29,125 nucleotides of DNA from a virus. Within the stretch, counting starts at the first letter, position 1. Each line of letters starts with the position of its first letter. The notes under the pieces were generated by a model. The model was given only the letters and a program-made list of their open reading frames with translations. It did no database searches and had not been told where the DNA came from. Below, piece by piece: positions 2,636-26,871 of the stretch. The DNA is taken from the IMG/VR virus record IMGVR_UViG_3300009409_000031, positions 1 to 29,125 of that record; one strand, given 5' to 3'. Made by a program: the position numbers and the translations under genes.

Positions 2636-3633
2636 TACACAACTCTCCCGAAGTCAATGCCCCGCACCGGCTGGCCGATACGACCTCCCGGTACCGTCAT
2701 CTGCACATTATCGAGGACGTGTGTGATATTGGGTTTTACGTCGAGATGGTTTTTGAATTCCTGCAAACGCTGGTTGCCCATCCCGAGATACTGGGTAGCC
2801 AGATCCTGCTTGCCGAACAGCGGCAGCACTTCGCCCGCACCCAGGAGGGTGAGGATGTCGTGATACTGGTCATCGAATTCCGGCCAGTCGTTGTCATTGA
2901 TCAGGTCAGGCTTGGTCACCATTGCCCTGATCTGCAGGTTGATAGCGGTGCTGGGGATCTGGTCGAACTCGATCCATGTATATGTAGGGGAGTCGTACGC
3001 CACGGGGATCCGAGCGACGACAACACCTGCAGTCACGTCTTTGCATATGACGTTGCCCGCAAAGGTTGCTCCCGAGGCATTGTATTTGGTAAAGCGTTCG
3101 ATCCCCCTGCTCTGGCTCGGGTCGGCGCTGCCGGTCGAAACTGCTGGGGTTGTGCCGTTGAGCGTAAGGTTCTCGGAAGTCCTCATGCCGTTGGCGTCGT
3201 AGAACGTCATTCTGACAAACAGGTTCGTGGAGTCTGATGCGGAGCTGGACTCCACGCTGATCGTGCTTGTTGCAGCAATGGGCACCTGAAGTCCGAAGCG
3301 ACCGATGCTGAAATACCGCAGCGGCCTACCCGTCTCCACGCGCCCAGGATCCAGCTTGTCGTGCTCTTCTACCGTCATCTCTTCGAGGTTGCTTCTGTCC
3401 GTGGTGTCCTGTATGTCGAGGATCGTGCGCACGTCCAGCGGCAGTCCGAGGGTCGCCTGTGAGGCTACCGTCGCTACCGTGAATGAGCGCTGCCTGAGAT
3501 CCTGAAACGTCTCCGCCAGCACCCGCTTGTAAGCGTTATTGATGCCGGTCTGGATGACGCTCTTTGCTTCGCCTCCGAGATCTACGGACCCACGTCGTGC
3601 CACTTCTTGTTGATGCTCGGTGTATGTCGCCAC
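2635..3633 (-). CDS. Probable head-tail connector / neck structural protein
   Basis: 332 residues, start ATG at 3633, overlapping the stop of the gene before it. The N-terminus (SVIQTGINNAYKRVLAETFQDLRQRSFTVATVASQATLGLP) is helical and resembles gp4/adaptor-like head-completion proteins. The middle is beta-rich (ISVESSSASDSTNLFVRMTFYDANGMRTSENLTLNG) and the C-terminal third again helical. It sits between virion genes upstream and the nozzle-like protein downstream, matching a portal-tail adaptor or neck role. I recognise no catalytic motif, and the specific family is not certain. Confidence 0.55.
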   Translation of the reverse strand: MATYTEHQQEVARRGSVDLGGEAKSVIQTGINNAYKRVLAETFQDLRQRSFTVATVASQATLGLPLDVRTILDIQDTTDRSNLEEMTVEEHDKLDPGRVETGRPLRYFSIGRFGLQVPIAATSTISVESSSASDSTNLFVRMTFYDANGMRTSENLTLNGTTPAVSTGSADPSQSRGIERFTKYNASGATFAGNVICKDVTAGVVVARIPVAYDSPTYTWIEFDQIPSTAINLQIRAMVTKPDLINDNDWPEFDDQYHDILTLLGAGEVLPLFGKQDLATQYLGMGNQRLQEFKNHLDVKPNITHVLDNVQMTVPGGRIGQPVRGIDFGRVV

Positions 3634-4593: not shown

Positions 4594-5481
4594 TTACGCC
4601 GCCAAATTGCAGACGTCGAACATCTCCTTCACCCGATCTACGTATGTGTGTTTCTCTCTTGCCAGCTTGTGTCCTGCTGCTGCGATAGTCTCTCTCTCTT
4701 CGTGATGCGTCAGGTAGTAATCGGCCTTCTCGATGGCTTCTTCCTCTCCCTCGTATCCGATGAAGTGGACGCCTTCCTCGAACCCCAGCTCCTGCCATCC
4801 GATGACGTTCCGGTTTGTCAGCAGCGCAGTCCCGGTGGACATCACTTCGAAAAATCTCATGTTCAGATCGTCTCGGATCGAGATATTGAAGCCCAGCCGA
4901 CCACGGATGTAGTGCGCCGCCATGAACTCATGGAAGCAGTCGGGGACGTACCAAAGCCTTCCCACACCCAAACGCATTCGCTCCAGCCATTCCAGCCTGT
5001 TGTTGCCCGTCTTGTCTTCGTTGATGAACCCCACGAATACGAGATCATGTTGCTTGTCGAGGCTGCGCCCCATCAGGATCTCGTCCTTGGTGTGGCTCGT
5101 CATGATCTCACCGTAGTTGGGGTGAGCTGGAGGGTGACAGGCCAGAGGCAACCAGTGTGCATTCAAGCCTTCTGCTGCCAGTCTCTCAGCTCCCGGTTTT
5201 TGTGCGGCGAAAATTGTGTCAAAATCTTCGGCCCACTTTCGCCGCATATCCCAGCCAAGGTGCGTATCGATGAGCCACGCAGCGTTGGGCTTGGGACAGT
5301 CCATTGGGATATCGTCTCTGCCGTCATCCACAAAAATGTAGAAGTCGCAGTCTTCTTCGTATCCCGCTCCACGGGTATACCATTTCGTCTCGATCCCCAT
5401 CTGGTGCTTTACTGCGTTTCTCACCAAACTGAAGGTGCCGTTGTCTCTTATTTCCGCGTTTACTACGAACCCGATTTTCAT
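4594..5481 (-). CDS. Glycosyltransferase, GT-B/CgeB-like
   Basis: 295 residues, ATG at 5481 in a four-base ATGA overlap with the preceding gene, so probably translationally coupled. The C-terminal segment (around residues 199-223: NISIRDDLNMRFFEVMSTGT followed by ALLTN) is the nucleotide-sugar-binding end seen in GT4/CgeB-like glycosyltransferases, including the Glu of the FFEVMSTG motif. The N-terminal half has Rossmann-like strands (MKIGFVVNAEI, CDFYIFVDDG, NAAWLIDTHLG). It probably transfers a sugar from an activated donor; the acceptor could be a virion protein, phage DNA or host envelope. It is the last of three consecutive sugar-transfer genes. Confidence 0.75.
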   Translation of the reverse strand: MKIGFVVNAEIRDNGTFSLVRNAVKHQMGIETKWYTRGAGYEEDCDFYIFVDDGRDDIPMDCPKPNAAWLIDTHLGWDMRRKWAEDFDTIFAAQKPGAERLAAEGLNAHWLPLACHPPAHPNYGEIMTSHTKDEILMGRSLDKQHDLVFVGFINEDKTGNNRLEWLERMRLGVGRLWYVPDCFHEFMAAHYIRGRLGFNISIRDDLNMRFFEVMSTGTALLTNRNVIGWQELGFEEGVHFIGYEGEEEAIEKADYYLTHHEERETIAAAGHKLAREKHTYVDRVKEMFDVCNLAA

Positions 5482-6710
5482 TCTACCCTCGCAATCACAC
5501 CGAACGCTCCCGAGTTGAACGACTGCGCCCCTTCGACAACGAATCCCTGTGATTCCATGAGACTCGTGAGTGTCGGAGCCGTATAGGCGTGGACATGTGA
5601 GTAATCGATAACCATTGTGTCGAGCTGCCCGTGTTCAGGAAGGACCGCGTATACCATCCCTTCCGGCTTCAACACTCTCTTCCATTCTTCCAGCGCAGCA
5701 ACAGGGTCTATCAGATGCTCGAACAGATGGATCGCGAAGATGTAGTCTTGCGAATGGTCAGCGACCGGGATGTTCATGGCGTCGCCCACCAGATGCGGCT
5801 TCGCTCCTGTGAACTTGCGTCCTCCGGCACCACGATCTCCCGGCTTTGCCATGTCTACCGGAACGCCCGCAATGTCTTCCCTGTCTCCACATCCCAGGTT
5901 GATGCCCTTGCTGCCCTCCACTGATTCAGAGAGACGATCCAGCCAGAGATCTTCTTCTGTCCTGCCTCCCTCGGGCTGCACCACAATCATAGTGGCTTGC
6001 ACTGTCTCGTACCACGCCCTGATTCCGTGTTTGTGGATGATCGCGTTTACCGTGTCCTCCTGATGCACCGTGCCGTCCCACTTGTTTCCGTGGACGCGGC
6101 GACCTGTCTGCTGCCCGAGGTGATGGAGGTATGCTGACCGGTCTACTATCAGGCGATATCCTGCTTTGCGTATCCTGATGCTCCAGTCGAAATCGTCGCC
6201 TCCTGGGAGCAGTTCGTCCAGCCCTCCGATTTCTTTGATCAGCTCCGTGCGCATCACCACACAGAACCCGATCAGCAGCGTTGTTTCGTAGATGTATGGC
6301 GCTCTGATATTCCAGAGACTCTGGGATCCCATGACGAAATTGCTTGTCGGTCCTACAGCTCCCACATTGGCGTGTCGAAACGGAGCACATAGCTTCCGCC
6401 AGAAATCCAGATGGTAAGGGAGGAACACCACATCGTCGTTGAGCAGCGCGACGTAGGGAGTGTTGCAGGATTTGAGAGCTAAATTGTGTGCTCCCATCCA
6501 GCCCGTGTTTCCACCGGCGTCGATAATCTCCACGTTTGGAACGTCGAAGCTTTCGACCAGCTCCTCGATGTGTGGCTGAGAGGGAGGGTCGTTGTTGATG
6601 ATCACGACCTTGAGCGGAAATTCTGTATGCATCAGCAGGGAGAGGACCGTGTCCTCAAGCTGCTGCAGGTTTTTGTATGTCGGGATCTGCACTGTCAGAA
6701 GAGGTTCCAT
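5478..6710 (-). CDS. GT2-family glycosyltransferase fused to a SAM-dependent methyltransferase
   Basis: 410 residues from the ATG at 6710, chosen because of the GGAGGGG ribosome site and the TAATG overlap with the upstream stop. Residues 1-~245 are a GT-A glycosyltransferase: LLTVQIPTYKNLQQLEDTVL, the NDD metal/nucleotide motif (91-93), GGDDFDWSIRIRKAGY (170-185). Residues ~265-410 are a class I methyltransferase: SAM-binding NLGCGDRED (271-279), acidic VGDAMNIPVADHSQDYI, then FAIHLFEHL and a VLKPEGMVYAVLPEHG strand. One protein could therefore add and methylate a sugar on the same acceptor. The fusion sits between two further glycosyltransferase genes in the virion operon. Confidence 0.85.
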   Translation of the reverse strand: MEPLLTVQIPTYKNLQQLEDTVLSLLMHTEFPLKVVIINNDPPSQPHIEELVESFDVPNVEIIDAGGNTGWMGAHNLALKSCNTPYVALLNDDVVFLPYHLDFWRKLCAPFRHANVGAVGPTSNFVMGSQSLWNIRAPYIYETTLLIGFCVVMRTELIKEIGGLDELLPGGDDFDWSIRIRKAGYRLIVDRSAYLHHLGQQTGRRVHGNKWDGTVHQEDTVNAIIHKHGIRAWYETVQATMIVVQPEGGRTEEDLWLDRLSESVEGSKGINLGCGDREDIAGVPVDMAKPGDRGAGGRKFTGAKPHLVGDAMNIPVADHSQDYIFAIHLFEHLIDPVAALEEWKRVLKPEGMVYAVLPEHGQLDTMVIDYSHVHAYTAPTLTSLMESQGFVVEGAQSFNSGAFGVIARVE

Positions 6711-7522
6711 TACATCCCCTCCGCTATCATTCGTGCATATTCCTCTGGCTGCGCCTTCCGGTTGGCATCGTATTCGGCTTCGCCGTGCCACTGTGGCTTG
6801 AAAACTTTGTGAACCGTCTTGAGGGAAGTGTCCACGTATCGAGGCACCCCGCTCTGCCAGCAGCGAACGCAGAACATCCAGTCTTCACCGCAAGCCGTAC
6901 TGTGAAACCACGGTTTCCCGATCTGCTTGAAGACGTTCATGTTGAACAGCACACACCCAGCTCCGAAGGCGATTGGCCCCCCGACATCGATGTCAGTGAT
7001 CAGCTGGTCCCGAGGGTAGTCGAAGACTGTTTCTGAGTGCCACTCCAGACCCTTGAGTCCGTGCTTTTCCTTGATCCTGTAGATAACCGGCTGAATGGGA
7101 TTGCGGGCCGTAAAGGCCAGCGCCCCCACCACAGGCTTCTGGTGTCGCCACAGCCTCAGGAAGGCTGACCATGGCATGAGCATGTCGTAGTCCCACATGA
7201 ACAGCCAGTCAGCGCCCCAAGCCATGGCATTCTCCACGACACGTTCCCGAGCCAGCCCTGGAAGGGAGAGTCCCCCTTCGTCGGAATACCCGAATTCGAA
7301 GATGCCGTCTTCTGCCGTGATCTCGGTGTGTTCGCCATCGGCTTTCATCGGATCGAGGGTGGGGATGTCGTACTCCCCTCCCGTGATCACCTGCTGCTGC
7401 AGCCAATGGCTCCGCTCCTGCATCCTGCCGAAGTAATGCATAATCTCGAAATACGTGGTATACGTGGACTTGTCGGGTCCGTTGTACCACGGAAATCCGA
7501 GGCATACTTTTGTAGTTTTCAA
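6710..7522 (-). CDS. Glycosyltransferase, GT-A fold
   Basis: 270 residues from a TTG start at 7522, supported by GGGAG about 6 bases upstream and the absence of a nearby ATG with a ribosome site. The protein shows a WDYDM motif (110-114), the DxD-type metal and nucleotide-sugar site, followed by a conserved-looking core (KPVVGALAFTARNP, DVGGPIAFGAGCVLFNMNVF) and a GEDWMFCVR acceptor-side motif. It is predicted to be cytoplasmic. It is first of the three sugar-transfer genes and overlaps the fusion gene by one base, so the three probably act in one pathway. Confidence 0.75.
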   Translation of the reverse strand: MKTTKVCLGFPWYNGPDKSTYTTYFEIMHYFGRMQERSHWLQQQVITGGEYDIPTLDPMKADGEHTEITAEDGIFEFGYSDEGGLSLPGLARERVVENAMAWGADWLFMWDYDMLMPWSAFLRLWRHQKPVVGALAFTARNPIQPVIYRIKEKHGLKGLEWHSETVFDYPRDQLITDIDVGGPIAFGAGCVLFNMNVFKQIGKPWFHSTACGEDWMFCVRCWQSGVPRYVDTSLKTVHKVFKPQWHGEAEYDANRKAQPEEYARMIAEGM

Positions 7523-7934: not shown

Positions 7935-8372
7935 TTACATGGCTCTCACAAACCCTGACGCATAACCACCGGGGCTGTTGATAGCAGCTCCGATAGCAGC
8001 GAGGGCATTGACAGGACCAAACGTGCCCTTGAGACCGGTACTGTTTACTCCGAAGGAACCTGCGACTCCCGGCCCGAGCATGTTGTCGATGGCCGTAGTC
8101 ACTGAAGTGCCCGTGCCGAAGATGTAGACAGACGCGGCATACCCGTATGCGATGTAGCGTCCGCTCTGCGTATCAGGTACGTCGCTGTTAGAGATCCCTG
8201 CAAACGTGCGAAGCTGGCCGACTGCAGGATGCACGGCACTGTTGCCGTCGAGCGATGCCGCTGTGGTCGTAAAAGCAACGGCGTGGCCGGTGGTGACTGT
8301 GGCTCCGGCAACATTGGTGAAGTTGCCGTACATCACCTCGGCATTCGTCTTGTTGGTTGTTGCGGTGGTCAT
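7935..8372 (-). CDS. Probable capsid decoration/virion surface protein
   Basis: 145 residues from the ATG at 8372, chosen for the AAGGAG directly upstream; the 12 codons before it lack a ribosome site. The protein is Ala/Gly/Thr/Val-rich and beta-like (VAGATVTTGHAVAFTTTAASLDGNSAVHPAVGQLRTFAGISNSDV...YIAYGYAASVYIFGTG) with no charge clusters, resembling small capsid cement or decoration proteins. It follows the two 95-residue paralogues downstream of the major capsid gene, the usual place for such proteins. Exact family not identified. Confidence 0.6.
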   Translation of the reverse strand: MTTATTNKTNAEVMYGNFTNVAGATVTTGHAVAFTTTAASLDGNSAVHPAVGQLRTFAGISNSDVPDTQSGRYIAYGYAASVYIFGTGTSVTTAIDNMLGPGVAGSFGVNSTGLKGTFGPVNALAAIGAAINSPGGYASGFVRAM

Positions 8373-8423
8373 TGGTTCTCCTTCCTCATCACCTTGGGCT
8401 TGCGCCACGGGGGTCCGAGTGGT

Positions 8424-8711
8424 TTAGATGAATTCGCAGGACCATGAGTAAGAGCTGACGTCCACCGTCGTGGACTGAAGCGCCACGGTACCGTTTGTGG
8501 CGGTACCGCTGGCGTCTTCGTTCGCATCCACCTCAACCGATCCGGCGTTATCCTTCCCGTAGATCTTGAAAGACCCAGGAACGATGTAGCCGGTCGGAAT
8601 GAGAGCGAATGCTGTCTTGGTCCCACTGACCTCAGCCGTGCCGGAGACCGCTGTGTGCGCTCCGGTCAGGCTGAGCAGATTTTGAGTTACTGTGAAATCT
8701 CCGAGCGCCAT
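8424..8711 (-). CDS. Small virion protein, decoration-like (paralogue 2)
   Basis: 95 residues from the ATG at 8711 preceded by GGAGGAG; a start five codons earlier (8726) lacks spacing. It begins MALGDFTVTQNLLSLTGAHT and is beta-rich. It aligns without gaps over its first ~38 residues with the neighbouring 95-residue protein (shared MAxGDxT, G17, H19, V22, G24, E27, T31, AF 34-35, L37) and again near the C-terminus (NGTVALQ versus SGSVAVQ). The pair arose by tandem duplication, and both follow the major capsid gene. A head decoration or cement role is inferred. Confidence 0.65.
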   Translation of the reverse strand: MALGDFTVTQNLLSLTGAHTAVSGTAEVSGTKTAFALIPTGYIVPGSFKIYGKDNAGSVEVDANEDASGTATNGTVALQSTTVDVSSYSWSCEFI

Positions 8712-8722
8712 GACTCCTCCTC

Positions 8723-9010
8723 TCAAACGTATCCAGCTGCGAACCGGAAGGAGTCTGCTGCCTCAGCTTGCACAGCCACAGATCCCGATGTCGAAGTGGA
8801 AAAGTCTGCCGCTACATTGACCACCACGCGGGCGTCATTCGTCGCATCGTCAGTCGTGCATTCCAGATTACAGAAGAGCAGCGACTGCTGAGAGTTGACG
8901 AGCTGAAACGCCCGTGCTGTGGTGTCAGCCTCGATCACTCCATTGACGACGTAGTGGTCGCCAGCAGAACGAACGGGAGCGGTGTCGTATGTGATATCTC
9001 CAACGGCCAT
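8723..9010 (-). CDS. Small virion protein, decoration-like (paralogue 1)
   Basis: 95 residues, ATG at 9010 with GGGAGG upstream, directly downstream of the major capsid gene. Sequence MAVGDITYDTAPVRSAGDHY then a beta-rich body ending SVAVQAEAADSFRFAAGYV. It has the same length and the same spaced residues as the next gene, so the two are paralogues. A likely role is binding the outer capsid surface or capsid vertices. No enzymatic motif is seen. Confidence 0.65.
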   Translation of the reverse strand: MAVGDITYDTAPVRSAGDHYVVNGVIEADTTARAFQLVNSQQSLLFCNLECTTDDATNDARVVVNVAADFSTSTSGSVAVQAEAADSFRFAAGYV

Positions 9011-21279: not shown

Positions 21280-21870
21280 TCACCTTCTAAACACGCCAAC
21301 AATTAAATAACTGTGATTTTTTCTGGCCGTCTTTTGGTACGGCTCCCTCATACAAGGGACTGTTGCTTGCAACAGGACAAAGATGTCTGCTATTCGAAAC
21401 CCAAACGTCTCCATTAGAGTAATAGCCTCGACGTGCGTCAACCTCTGCTTGCCACTTTCTATTTCGTCTTGGCATTTCACATACAAAACGCCCTTCTTCT
21501 TCAGGCATCTTGCCGCTTCCAGTATACCTGCCGCATAGTTCCTGACCACAGATTCGTGACCTGTATTTTCATTCCTATAGCATTCGTTGATACTTTTCTT
21601 GACCGTCTTCCCTCCGTGCATATATGGAGGGTCGAAGACCAATCCGTCCAACGAATCATCCTCGTAAGGCAGGTTCCGAAAGTCCACGCCCGTCTGGATA
21701 TCCGTAAGCAGTAGGTTGTAGTTCTTTCTGTCAACGTCTTTCCAAAAGACACCCTTTCCATAGGTAACATCTGCTATGGTTGCCCCATGTTCCGAATGCA
21801 ACCCTAGTGCATCGGGGAAAATGTTTGCATTGGTTCCTACTTTTCCTGTAAGAATGACGCCGTCCGTCAT
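21280..21870 (-). CDS. Amino-group DNA methyltransferase (DPPY type)
   Basis: 196 residues, ATG at 21870 in an ATGA overlap with a tiny upstream gene. Motif I-like ADVTYGKGVFW (33-43) and motif IV DPPY (80-83, in GLVFDPPYMHGG) mark an N6-adenine or N4-cytosine DNA methyltransferase using SAM. The order (motif I then DPPY) indicates the gamma/beta-like arrangement, and the short length leaves little room for a separate target-recognition domain. The C-terminus LLQATVPCMREPYQKTARKN HSYLIVGVF is a typical terminal strand. No partner restriction enzyme is visible, so self-protection against host restriction is likely. Confidence 0.85.
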   Translation of the reverse strand: MTDGVILTGKVGTNANIFPDALGLHSEHGATIADVTYGKGVFWKDVDRKNYNLLLTDIQTGVDFRNLPYEDDSLDGLVFDPPYMHGGKTVKKSINECYRNENTGHESVVRNYAAGILEAARCLKKKGVLYVKCQDEIESGKQRLTHVEAITLMETFGFRIADIFVLLQATVPCMREPYQKTARKNHSYLIVGVFRR

Positions 21871-22864: not shown

Positions 22865-23231
22865 TTTTTGGGCTTTGAACCCAACGAAGAGGCAGGAAAA
22901 TTCTCAAAACATGAGAAAACCGGAAATATCCTGGGCTGTGAGCCGACGCCCTCAAGGGCCAGCGGAAGTACTGTACAGTACAAAGGCAGGGGAATCGGCA
23001 GACCAGGGCGGGAATAGTAGCGATATGCAAAAGGGAGCCCCTTTAAGGGCTAAAAAATATCTACGAGCGGGATGAATTATTAAATGGCAAGGGGGGCGGG
23101 ATACCCCACCCCCCCGCTGGCGTTCCAGGACTGAAATGGGCCGATTTGAGCCGGATTCGGGTTGCATATGGGTTGCGTTCCCGAAAAACCCGCCTCCAGA
23201 CTGGCTCTTCGTTGGGTTCAAAGCCCAAAAA
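22865..23231. repeat. Perfect 27-bp inverted repeat pair
   Basis: The 27 bases at 22865-22891 are the exact reverse complement of 23205-23231, with 313 bases between them. The core includes GGGCTTTGAACCCAACG. The match stops abruptly at both ends. It could loop control DNA by protein binding, form a long stem in RNA, or mark an inversion or insertion event. Confidence 0.9.
22968..22981. promoter_or_regulatory. 14-bp palindromic operator candidate
   Basis: GTACTGTACAGTAC is perfectly self-complementary and lies about 230 bases upstream of the XRE gene start. This symmetry suits a dimeric HTH repressor. It is not a LexA box, because the CTGT and ACAG halves have no 8-base spacer. Confidence 0.6.
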
Positions 23232-23555: not shown

Positions 23556-24326
23556 ATGCAGAAAATACCGATGTTTACGGGATTAGGTACGCCGAAATCG
23601 AAACTTTCCACTATCAAAATCCAGCAAGATGGAGATGTATTTACCAGCCTGTCGCACGTCAATTCCAAGCCTGAAAATCGCAAGATTGGCGATGTATGCC
23701 AAACGTGGCATTTAACGGTCCAGAAGCCTTCTGAGGCATACACAAGCGGAAATGATTCGAAGGTGTGTTTCGATTGCCCATTCAGGTCCAAGGCATCCGG
23801 TGGAAACGGTGGTTGTTACGTGGTCACAATCCACGGTCCGAATGGGGTTCATAGCTCACACCGAACACCTGAGGCGAATAGGCCAGTGAATCAGGATGTC
23901 CAGCCCTTGCCTGACGTTATCAACAAGCCGATCCGATTTGGTGCATACGGCGATCCTGTTGTGATGCCTGTCGAGTTGATGCGAGACCTTGCCAGCCGGG
24001 CCACCGGCCACCTTGGATATACCCATCAATGGCTGACTTGCGATCCCGCATACTCAGAATTTCTGATGGCGTCCATAGACGAAGCCACCGCGAAGCAGAA
24101 CGGTATGACGGTCACCGCATTGGCCGATAAAGCAAAATCGATGGGCTGGCGTACGTTTCGAGTAAAATCCCCCGGCGATCTGAATATGGTTGACGAAATC
24201 ACCTGCCCGAACACAACAAAAGGCGTCCAATGCGCCGATTGTGGACTATGCGCCGGGAACACAATAAGCGCGAAGTCGATCACCATTGACGCACACGGCA
24301 CCGGAGCCGCAAACATCGCAGAATAG
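23556..24326 (+). CDS. Conserved cysteine-rich phage protein (Gp88-like pattern)
   Basis: 256 residues, ATG at 23556 with AAGGAGAT upstream; first gene after the strong promoter. Conserved-looking blocks are CFDCP (71-75), GGCY (85-88), FGAYGDP (129-135), YTHQW (155-159) and a C-terminal Cys cluster (C217, C226, C229, C232) followed by ITIDAHGTG. The layout resembles the Gp88/DUF7227-type phage proteins of unknown activity, in which the Cys sets probably bind metal or an iron-sulfur cluster; this is from memory of the pattern. It is likely an enzyme, but the reaction is unknown. Confidence 0.65.
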   Translation: MQKIPMFTGLGTPKSKLSTIKIQQDGDVFTSLSHVNSKPENRKIGDVCQTWHLTVQKPSEAYTSGNDSKVCFDCPFRSKASGGNGGCYVVTIHGPNGVHSSHRTPEANRPVNQDVQPLPDVINKPIRFGAYGDPVVMPVELMRDLASRATGHLGYTHQWLTCDPAYSEFLMASIDEATAKQNGMTVTALADKAKSMGWRTFRVKSPGDLNMVDEITCPNTTKGVQCADCGLCAGNTISAKSITIDAHGTGAANIAE

Positions 24327-24360: not shown

Positions 24361-24512
24361 ACCGGAGGATACCACGTGACCACTATCGATTGACCCGTAC
24401 GAACGCCGTGAAACTGAGACCGATCTGAAAGCCGCATTCGTGACTGTTGGAGCCGCTGATTTGTTGCACTAAACCACCACCGCACCGGAGGATACAACGT
24501 GACCACTATCGA
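24359..24512 (+). repeat. 31-bp direct repeat covering two gene starts
   Basis: Positions 24359-24389 and 24482-24512 match over 31 bases with one difference (C/A). Each copy contains CACCGGAGGATAC and a GTGACCACTATCGA start. Copy 1 is followed by a stop at codon 6; copy 2 starts an intact gene. Confidence 0.85.
24376..24472 (+). pseudogene. Frameshifted small gene remnant
   Basis: GTG at 24376 has a perfect GGAGGA site but stops at codon 6 (TGA 24391). In the next frame, from 24389, the sequence reads IDPYERRETETDLKAAFVTV then GAADLLH and stops at 24472, just before the next ACCACCAC leader. A one-base change at 24390-24391 would join the two. It looks like a small gene broken by a frameshift, or one that uses an unusual ATT start. 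Confidence 0.45.
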
Positions 24513-24669: not shown

Positions 24670-24689
24670 CCACCACGGAGGATACCACG

Positions 24690-25835
24690 ATGAAAGCTTC
24701 GGAGATTCGCATCATTCGGGATTCGTTTTTCAACCCGACACACAAGCTTGATCGCAATGGATACGAGACCCCGGCGAACAAGCCCACGCATACGCTGATT
24801 TTCGATGGGACGCTGGCCTCCCTTGCGACTCTGGCAGGCTTGTATCGGGCCGGGATCGAGCCAGACGAGATCATCTGCTGGGATGGCAATGTCTCGCCTG
24901 AGTATGACGCAAACGATCAAGCCGTCAATCAATGGCTGGCCGAACGGATGTATCCAGCACTCACCGTGGTCGATTGGGTACTGCCTCACTACAGCCTCTG
25001 CAATGGCTGGGGATGGAGCGCAAAGCGTCAGGCGTCCGAGGTTCGGGCCGCTGGGCTTCCGGTCCCTGAGGAGGCTACACACAACCCTCACGGGCATCGG
25101 ACAATCCTGTCGCTGTTCGACCGAACTGGCAATTGGTCGAAGCCCTATGCCGAAGCAGGGTACGAGGTCATCACCATCGACATCGAGCCAGCGGCAACGG
25201 AGCGATTCAATCACGTCCAGATGGACATACTCGAACGGGTAGATTTTGAGGGCGAGGAGATGTCTGCCCTCGAAGCTCTGATGCGGGAATGGGCTGAGTC
25301 TGGCGTGGTTATCGATGGCATCCTTGCCGCTTGCCCCTGCACGAATTTCAGCGTGGCGAACAACAAAAAGATGATGCCCAAAAACAGACCCGCCGCACCT
25401 GAGGCATTAGCGGAGCTTGAGATCTCGAAACAGCTTGTGGAAATTGTGCTGGATCTGGTGGACTTCTGGCAACCCGAATTTTGGGTGGTCGAGAATCCAG
25501 CCAGCACCATCAAGCGGCACGTGCCGCAATTGGGTGAGCCGTCCTACTATGAACCGCACCATTTCGGGCATCCATACTCGAAGAAAACTGGCCTGTGGGG
25601 CAGTTACAATCGAGACCTTCCCACGAACCACGTGGTCCCTGTCGAGATGAGCGAGAATCCGGAGTGGGCCAAGCTGGGAGGGGGATCGAAGCGGACTCAG
25701 CAGTTGAGATCGATCACGCCAATGGGTATGGCGAGGGCATTCTACGAGGCAAACAACTTCGGGACGCAATCGGTTGAAACCCCGGTCCCGACTTACTACG
25801 AAGATGTGATGGATGCGCTGGAGCAGGGCGCATAA
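24690..25835 (+). CDS. C5-cytosine-methyltransferase-like protein with N-terminal PP-loop-like domain
   Basis: 381 residues from the ATG at 24690, chosen for the GGAGGATACCACG leader; the frame continues 30 codons upstream without a ribosome site. Residues ~137-381 are a class I methyltransferase of DNA-cytosine type: motif I SLFDRTGNWSKPYAEAGYEV (141-160), motif IV with the catalytic PC (216-217, in ILAACPCTNFS), motif VI VVENP (266-270), then KKTGLWGSYNRDLP and the SITPMGMARAFYEAN end. Residues ~33-120 resemble a PAPS-reductase/ATP-pyrophosphatase fold (THTLIFDGTLASLATLAGLY RAGIEPDEIICWDGN), but the SGGKDS loop reads DGTLAS (39-44). The N-domain is therefore probably inactive. Confidence 0.75.
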   Translation: MKASEIRIIRDSFFNPTHKLDRNGYETPANKPTHTLIFDGTLASLATLAGLYRAGIEPDEIICWDGNVSPEYDANDQAVNQWLAERMYPALTVVDWVLPHYSLCNGWGWSAKRQASEVRAAGLPVPEEATHNPHGHRTILSLFDRTGNWSKPYAEAGYEVITIDIEPAATERFNHVQMDILERVDFEGEEMSALEALMREWAESGVVIDGILAACPCTNFSVANNKKMMPKNRPAAPEALAELEISKQLVEIVLDLVDFWQPEFWVVENPASTIKRHVPQLGEPSYYEPHHFGHPYSKKTGLWGSYNRDLPTNHVVPVEMSENPEWAKLGGGSKRTQQLRSITPMGMARAFYEANNFGTQSVETPVPTYYEDVMDALEQGA

Positions 25836-25843
25836 ATAGAAAT

Positions 25844-25880
25844 GCGGCGGGGTGACCCACCACAGATCAGATCCCGCCGC
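25844..25880 (+). promoter_or_regulatory. Stem-loop displaying a CCACCAC motif
   Basis: GCGGCGGG (25844-25851) pairs with CCCGCCGC (25873-25880), extended by one G-T and one T-A pair; the 17-base loop contains CCCACCAC. No T run follows. It follows the methyltransferase-like stop and precedes the PAPS-reductase-like gene. Confidence 0.65.
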
Positions 25881-25911
25881 CAAACACACCACTAAATGGA
25901 GGATACCATAC

Positions 25912-26157
25912 GTGGATCTCAGAGTATATGACATAATCGCAGTCTCGTCAAGTGCTGGTATTTGTAGCCTCAACGCCATCCTGACTGCATACGAAGAGGC
26001 TGAGATGCAGGGAGTGCTGGACAGGATCGTTGTTGTCCACGCTGATCTGGGTCGGCTGGAATGGTCAGGCACCGTGGATCTCGTCAAGCAACAGGATACG
26101 ATTTCCAGCCTGGACTCAGCCTCACGGAGCTACGGGATGAGATCGACTCTGGGCTGA
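25912..26157 (+). CDS. Truncated PAPS-reductase-like protein, PP-loop lost (possible pseudogene)
   Basis: 81 residues from the GTG at 25912, placed after GGAGGATAC. The N-terminus closely follows phage PAPS-reductase-like proteins: VYDIIAVSSSAGICSLNAIL (loop SSAGKDS expected, SSAGICS found at 13-19), RIVVVHADLGRLEWSGT (39-54), the switch-like HADLGR-EW motif. These proteins usually continue for another 100-250 residues. Here the frame stops at 26157. A neighbouring frame stays open from about 26080 to TAG 26196 (GYDFQPGLSLTELRDEIDSG then LIEIEQAPAMSASY) and reaches the ribosome site of the next gene. It is either a decayed gene with a frameshift or a short non-catalytic derivative. Confidence 0.6.
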   Translation: MDLRVYDIIAVSSSAGICSLNAILTAYEEAEMQGVLDRIVVVHADLGRLEWSGTVDLVKQQDTISSLDSASRSYGMRSTLG

Positions 26158-26208
26158 TCGAGATCGAGCAAGCTCCCGCAATGTCCGCCTCATATTAGGA
26201 GAATCGCA

Positions 26209-26871
26209 ATGCAAGTCTACACTGGTGACACGCGAAAGCTGGACTTCATAAAAATCATTCAGGATCAGGGCTGGGGCAGGTTGTGGTCGTCACGGGTTCC
26301 CACGCAATATCAGCAGGATCTCACACCGAATTGGGTGATGGACAACAACGTGTATTCAGAGACCACGAATAAGAAGAAACACCCGAATGGGTGGAGTGGA
26401 ATCCGCTGGGATGAGAGGCTGCACCAGATCATCGAGCGCGACCTTGAGCCAGACTTCATCGTCCTACCCGACACAATGGGAAACGGCCCAGACACGATCA
26501 TCAGCGCGGACTACTACATCGAACAGTATGCTGTTCACGGTTTCTACAACGAGATCCAGACAAAATACGCATTCGCTTTGCAGGAAGGGATGACCCCAGA
26601 CACTGTCGCACGATGGCTCGATGTTTGGGATGAATACGACCATGTCCTCTGGATCGGCGTCCTGTTCCTGGGAGGTGGCGATGATTTCAAGAAACTGGCA
26701 CCAGCTTGGGCGAGGCTGGCTCACAGTCGGGGGATGCAGCTCCACTACGCCAGAGCAGGAACGCCAGCCAAAGTGAAACACGCCAGAGACTCTGGAGCTG
26801 ACAGTATCGATTCAGCCTTCCCCCTCTGGGAACAGAGCAGATTTGAGGAGTTCGTGAAAGCTGCCAGTTAA
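26209..26871 (+). CDS. TGT/DpdA-like deazapurine base-exchange family protein
   Basis: 220 residues, ATG at 26209 with TAGGAGA upstream, the only gene here without the ACCACCAC leader. The TIM-barrel blocks of phage DpdA/tRNA-guanine-transglycosylase-like proteins occur in order: WVMDNNVYS (43-50; DNGAF in relatives), FIVLPDTMGNGPDTI (83-97; PDVVGD), VLFLGGGDDFK (151-161; VFVGGs), LHYARAGTPAKVKHARDSGA DSID (178-201; H-GR-x-S-RR...GaDSvD). Such enzymes replace guanine by a 7-deazaguanine in DNA or tRNA. Some positions usually conserved (second Arg pair, Gly of DNGAF) are changed here, so activity is not assured. Confidence 0.7.
   Translation: MQVYTGDTRKLDFIKIIQDQGWGRLWSSRVPTQYQQDLTPNWVMDNNVYSETTNKKKHPNGWSGIRWDERLHQIIERDLEPDFIVLPDTMGNGPDTIISADYYIEQYAVHGFYNEIQTKYAFALQEGMTPDTVARWLDVWDEYDHVLWIGVLFLGGGDDFKKLAPAWARLAHSRGMQLHYARAGTPAKVKHARDSGADSIDSAFPLWEQSRFEEFVKAAS

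Follow-up and report, generated by a model that had tools for sequence, protein, structure and literature searches.

Does this window, by which we mean the whole 29,125-bp stretch analysed here, carry a working nucleotide-modification cassette, and which of its steps would remain? The source contig is a fragment of an uncultured tailed phage, with no larger genome behind the record, and it is classed as linear and is therefore probably incomplete. Virion genes (terminases, major head protein, structural proteins) occupy the minus strand at 1-17 kb, and a plus-strand gene block runs from 23.5 kb onward. Within this block, a preliminary description had placed three genes in a row, cytosine-methyltransferase-like, PAPS-reductase-like and TGT/DpdA-like, and had read them as a possible cassette that modifies nucleotides. 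All three open reading frames (24690-25835, 25852-26157 and 26209-26871) are present on the plus strand, and the region resolves into the following features.

23556..24326, plus strand: DUF7227-like flanking gene (phrog_2554, 6e-50; Pfam DUF7227, 3e-5, below cut-off)
24690..25835, plus strand: C5-cytosine DNA methyltransferase with an N-terminal, in-frame PP-loop remnant (phrog_757, motifs, AF2, Foldseek)
24792..25070, plus strand: PAPSb PP-loop remnant inside the methyltransferase ORF (phmmer, alignment against shuffles, low pLDDT)
25911..26100, plus strand: N-terminal remnant of PAPSa, a second PAPS-reductase-like PP-loop gene (match to contig L101)
26094..26183, plus strand: candidate C-terminal remnant of PAPSa in a shifted frame (GYDFQPGLSLTEL...), resembling Gilgamesh gp116 residues 304-330
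26209..26871, plus strand: short TGT/DpdA-like base-exchange enzyme, 220 aa, putatively active (alignment, AF2, Foldseek, neighbourhoods)

The DUF7227-like gene upstream was considered as a cassette member and rejected, with a match in 0 of 16 related contigs. No DNA-level relatives of the whole region were found in phages. A 9-mer, GGAGGATAC, occurs seven times inside 3.5 kb, on the plus strand only (positions 24364, 24487, 24677, 25898, 26941, 27153 and 27815), mostly directly 5' of start codons; 0.13 copies would be expected, and no shuffle reached the observed number. It is a repeated translation-initiation signal of the plus-strand gene block, and the TGT-like gene stands without it. At 24364-24510, a tandem pair of near-identical starts (GGAGGATACnACGTGACCACTATCGA), the first of which meets a stop immediately, resembles a small gene that has been duplicated and broken. 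The stretch separating the gene blocks holds an inverted repeat (22865-22895 and 23201-23231; 31 nt, 97% complementary, 305 nt apart), perhaps a regulatory structure or a small mobile element. The contig also encodes a second DNA methyltransferase, apart from the cassette (21280-21870, minus strand; phrog_24333, E 1e-46), and, amid the virion genes, a 437-aa protein (5478-6791, minus strand) whose C-terminal part weakly matches phage methyltransferases (phrog_22502, 5.5e-5).

The first gene proved to be what it had been taken for. Its product matches phrog_757 with an E-value of 8.8e-42 and Pfam PF00145 with only 0.0098, below the cut-off. The methyltransferase domain, formed by the ~245 C-terminal residues (approximately 135-381; window 25092-25832), retains the catalytic PC (C217), ENP (268-270) and GHxxSKxTxLW motifs. 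The AF2 model has a pLDDT of ~90 for residues 141-220 and mostly 77-92 up to residue 310, and nearly all of its Foldseek matches in the PDB with E<=0.001 are C5-methyltransferases. Family, motifs and fold thus confirm the C-terminal part as a C5-cytosine methyltransferase.

The N-terminal ~125 residues of the same ORF are what is left of a cored-out PAPS-reductase-like PP-loop domain fused in frame. By phmmer, they match residues 81-139 and then 230-255 of PAPSb from contig L042; the start of the domain is joined straight to a WGW...AAGLPVP segment, and the intervening ~90 residues are gone. The two segments score 104 and 72 against shuffle maxima of 50 and 54, the PP-loop motif G-x-G-V-D-S-T of intact relatives reads D-G-T-L-A-S-L in the window, and the pLDDT over residues 1-130 is 31-56. 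Since the ORF is open throughout and has a good start signal (GGAGGATAC at 24677), the fusion is probably translated. Among the viral contigs searched, there was no second case of it and no close relative.

For the middle gene, the earlier assignment as PAPS-reductase-like holds for ~62 residues, which share 55% identity with an intact relative on L101 (alignment score 149 against a shuffle maximum of 59) and are preceded by a copy of GGAGGATAC at 25898. It fails beyond them: the PP-loop motif SGGKDS has become SAGICS, and the next gene follows ~110 nt after the homology stops, which leaves no room for the enzyme core. The score of the downstream scrap at 26094-26183 was equalled by 6 of 200 shuffles, which makes its reading as the PAPSa C-terminus suggestive at most. 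ORF 25852-26157 is therefore a truncated, frame-disrupted remnant and no working gene. Neither PP-loop copy in the window can be counted as a family member, as neither the SGG(K)DS / GxGVDST motif nor a complete domain is intact.

The 26209 protein is assigned to phrog_15826, a family of unknown function, and direct comparisons do not place it further. It matched no Pfam family at E<=1, the TGT profile (PF01702) gave no match at E<=10, and the phage DpdA profile PF23859, with which Gilgamesh gp114 scores 1e-78, gave none at E<=1. As a single sequence, it showed no significant hhalign match to E. coli Tgt, the family profile retrieved no TGT from the sequences of solved structures, and no close relatives were found in the viral contigs searched. 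More distant relatives were reached by tblastn, which led to Erythrobacter phages R6L and ZS04; R6L gp10 as query led in turn to actinophage proteins annotated as 'DpdA-like tRNA-guanine transglycosylase'. A scan of viral contigs for the family added 80 further loci.

Across a 60-sequence alignment of this family, the window protein, at 21-36% identity to its relatives, keeps 11 of 11 invariant residues (N46, D88, Q125, F153, G155, G156, K161, H179, R182, S199 and D201) and likewise D45; it departs from the consensus at residues 47 (G/D/A/S to N) and 126 (D/N to E). The AlphaFold2 model has a pLDDT of 92.2 and a pTM of 0.90. In Foldseek searches of the PDB, TGTs make up about 40 of the 50 best matches (E ~1e-4, TMq up to 0.60), with other TIM barrels reaching similar E-values (1e-4), and searches of viral models return phage 'queuine tRNA-ribosyltransferases' among the matches. 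In the model, D45, D88, Q125, G155-156 and D201 sit at the ends of barrel strands in the order known from TGT (for E. coli Tgt, DSGGF 89, FDEC 142, GG 213 and DMFDC 261).

Profile-profile comparison connects the short family with the phage DpdAs of Sonali and Vibrio R29Z (E 9e-7), with which the DpdA of CAjan also aligns; a smaller subclade shows a weaker hhalign match to DpdA (probability 59%). The relative on contig L166 hits the Pfam TGT model at 3.5e-4, which falls short of the cut-off; the TGT-like protein of contig L110 matches phrog_887, 'queuine tRNA-ribosyltransferase', at 3e-22. Conservation, fold, profile comparison and gene neighbourhoods support placing the 26209 protein in the TGT/DpdA superfamily, as a short and distant member. 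The preliminary description had made its proposal depend on this relationship, which the evidence upholds.

To place the family in its genomic context, neighbouring genes were clustered around 89 TGT-like relatives, and the QueC, YhhQ, QueD and QueE families were named from sequence. Genes of these families, among them that of the preQ0 transporter YhhQ, often directly adjoin the TGT-like gene. At least one of QueC, QueD, QueE or YhhQ lies within 4 kb at 34 of 67 non-redundant TGT-like loci and at 0 of 49 control loci (Fisher 6e-11), where the control loci are centred on a single gene family, PAPS-reductase-like, and are no random sample of phage genes, and where the Que/YhhQ profiles derive from the TGT-like neighbourhoods themselves; the contrast is nevertheless large. 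Pfam agrees with the assignments for QueC in L012 (4.8e-44), PTPS/QueD in L015 (9.8e-27) and Vut_1/YhhQ in ReqiPine5 (3.3e-9), and Pfam or the record annotation places QueC, QueD and QueE in the neighbourhood of Sonali. The idea that PAPS-like genes substitute for QueC was dropped: L004, L015, L048 and L067 have both PAPS-like genes and Que or YhhQ genes, so there is no mutual exclusion.

In two phages, the short TGT-like gene shares one preQ0 region with a gene for full-length DpdA, Sonali (4962-5576 and 7949-8836, respectively) and R29Z (4767-5351 and 2638-3588), and the short enzyme is therefore no simple replacement for DpdA. The genome of one bacterium, Desulfovirgula thermocuniculi, has a short TGT-like gene on each of three contigs (L336, L337 and L339), perhaps reflecting several prophages or a cellular role.

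The window itself offers no precursor pathway. No match to QueC or Tgt was found anywhere in the 29-kb contig, and no QueD, QueE or FolE among the window proteins scanned. The absence of preQ0 synthesis genes that had been remarked on earlier thus stands for these 29 kb, though in a linear fragment it is not decisive. It fits the relatives: the complete R6L genome and contigs L042 and L166 have TGT-like and PP-loop genes and no match to QueC, QueD or YhhQ.

The cassette recurs in other contigs, in loci that were retrieved independently. L110 (contig 3300043264_000003) has consecutive PAPSb, C5-methyltransferase, PAPSa and TGT-like genes and so agrees with the window in families and in order, with both PP-loop enzymes intact; its methyltransferase belongs to phrog_757, and its TGT-like protein to the longer phrog_887 branch, scoring weakly with the short family. 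In L166 and L042 the four kinds are arranged differently (PAPSa, short TGT, PAPSb and a Dcm-type C5-methyltransferase). The triplet PAPSb, C5-methyltransferase and PAPSa is found in L108, L109, L111 and L112, L325 has PAPSb, TGT-like and Dcm genes, and in Gilgamesh PAPSa lies two genes away from a bona fide Pfam DpdA. This recurrence bears out the reading of the region as a modification cassette, from which the window virus has lost both PP-loop enzymes. Neither C5-methyltransferase nor PAPS-like genes are significantly enriched near the TGT-like family relative to the control (dcm 10/67 vs 3/49), which makes the cassette a particular arrangement that recurs in the minority of loci. We found no description of it in the searchable literature.

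With moderate confidence, we favour the explanation that a host-derived 7-deazaguanine is exchanged into phage DNA and cytosine is methylated, in a partly decayed anti-restriction cassette. It builds on the family relationships, conservation, fold, remnants and recurrence described above; what we infer is that DNA is the substrate, which base is exchanged in and that the role is anti-restriction. In this view, the 26209 protein is a pared-down transglycosylase of the TGT/DpdA type. Its Asp201, which takes the place of the TGT nucleophile in the order of residues, would by homology displace guanine from DNA, while Asp45, Asp88, Gln125 and Gly155-156 would hold the incoming 7-deazaguanine, which would then be joined to the sugar. 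Given that the fragment shows no precursor gene, the phage would obtain its base (preQ0, preQ1 or a relative) from the medium or from queuosine synthesis in the host. Independently of base exchange, the adjacent methyltransferase would methylate cytosine C5, and both modifications would serve as anti-restriction marks. Both PP-loop enzymes are without core and ATP-binding motif, so their step would be lost, leaving base exchange and methylation.

Phage DpdA inserts 7-deazaguanines into DNA, and knockout of DpdA in CAjan abolishes dPreQ0 (PMC6884629). Phages with an orphan DpdA may depend on the host (PMC6884629). In one of them, Orion, modified bases are absent (PMC6884629); having DpdA is thus no proof of modification. 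Counting against the favoured explanation are the missing direct Pfam TGT/DpdA match of the TGT-like gene, the absence of a precursor gene from the fragment and the deviating residues 47 and 126.

A rather unlikely alternative starts from the intact order PAPSb-C5MT-PAPSa-TGT and takes it for an undescribed pathway of DNA hypermodification: a base, 7-deazaguanine or another, would be exchanged in by a minimal TGT and thiolated, amidated or conjugated by two PP-loop ATPases, with no Que gene; the window would be a version stripped to exchange and methylation. The preliminary description had likewise envisaged a new chemistry, as one of two possibilities. For the window virus this falls away as far as the PP-loop step is concerned: the middle gene is a remnant, and with that step lost it can contribute no new chemistry. 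Only relatives whose PP-loop genes are intact still leave room for the idea.

We think it unlikely that the short enzyme works on host or phage tRNA, inserting or swapping queuosine precursors during infection, and not on DNA. The TGT fold is compatible with such a role, and QueC, QueD and YhhQ neighbours would serve tRNA equally. However, 220 residues are too few for the ~100-residue C-terminal region with a CxC..C..H cluster that tRNA enzymes such as E. coli Tgt (375 aa) carry, the recurrent cassette partners are C5-methyltransferases, mostly DNA enzymes, and Sonali and Vibrio R29Z hold a full phage DpdA in addition to the short one in their preQ0 clusters.

That the genes are unrelated anti-restriction cargo, neighbours by chance and no functional cassette, seems quite improbable: phages commonly carry C5-methyltransferases and PAPS-like genes, and the enrichment near the TGT-like family is not significant, but L110 repeats the four families in unchanged order, L166 and L042 also have all four kinds, and further contigs carry the PAPSb-C5MT-PAPSa triplet. 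Least likely, in our judgement, is a cassette dying as a whole, its TGT-like gene an orphan that modifies nothing and its methyltransferase alone useful, for although two of four members are wrecked, a broken duplicate reading frame lies upstream, the enzyme is off consensus at 47 and 126 and Orion provides a precedent, neutral decay would not leave a full open frame with every invariant residue kept at 21-36% identity.

In returning to the favoured explanation, base exchange with cytosine methylation, we note that it ties a widespread and mostly unannotated short TGT-like phage family (phrog_15826) to 7-deazaguanine metabolism. The analysis also brings out a four-gene arrangement that recurs, in which PP-loop enzymes and cytosine methyltransferases take part, and that is amenable to testing in isolated phages. 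If intact cassettes make a new base, they extend the DNA-modification repertoire; if they make none, they help to account for orphan DpdA-like genes.

Among known systems, phage DpdA (CAjan, Dp-1, Sonali gp87; PF23859, phrog_1279, phrog_887) resembles the short family in its TGT-type barrel, in the succession of its D-x-G-A-F, PD/LD and GG motifs, in its preQ0-gene neighbourhoods and by the profile match. It differs in length (~300 aa, against ~200-220 aa) and, as to sequence, the short family forms a separate group, phrog_15826, unmatched by the DpdA Pfam model, and can coexist with full DpdA. The actinophage proteins annotated as DpdA-like (Majeke gp54, Aoka gp40, Sonali gp81), reached via R6L gp10, belong to the same short family; their genes adjoin YhhQ or Que genes, whereas the window gene adjoins a C5-methyltransferase and PP-loop remnants. 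Bacterial Tgt (PF01702) shares fold and catalytic-residue order with the window protein, which lacks its C-terminal zinc/tRNA-binding region and any direct sequence match to it. Phage PAPS-reductase-like proteins (phrog_424; Gilgamesh gp116) resemble the middle ORF over its N-terminal 62 residues and the methyltransferase over its N-terminal extension, with core and PP-loop motif missing from the window copies. Finally, the phage C5-methyltransferases of phrog_757 share the catalytic PC, ENP and GHxxSKxTxLW motifs with the window enzyme, which is set apart by its fused PAPSb remnant.
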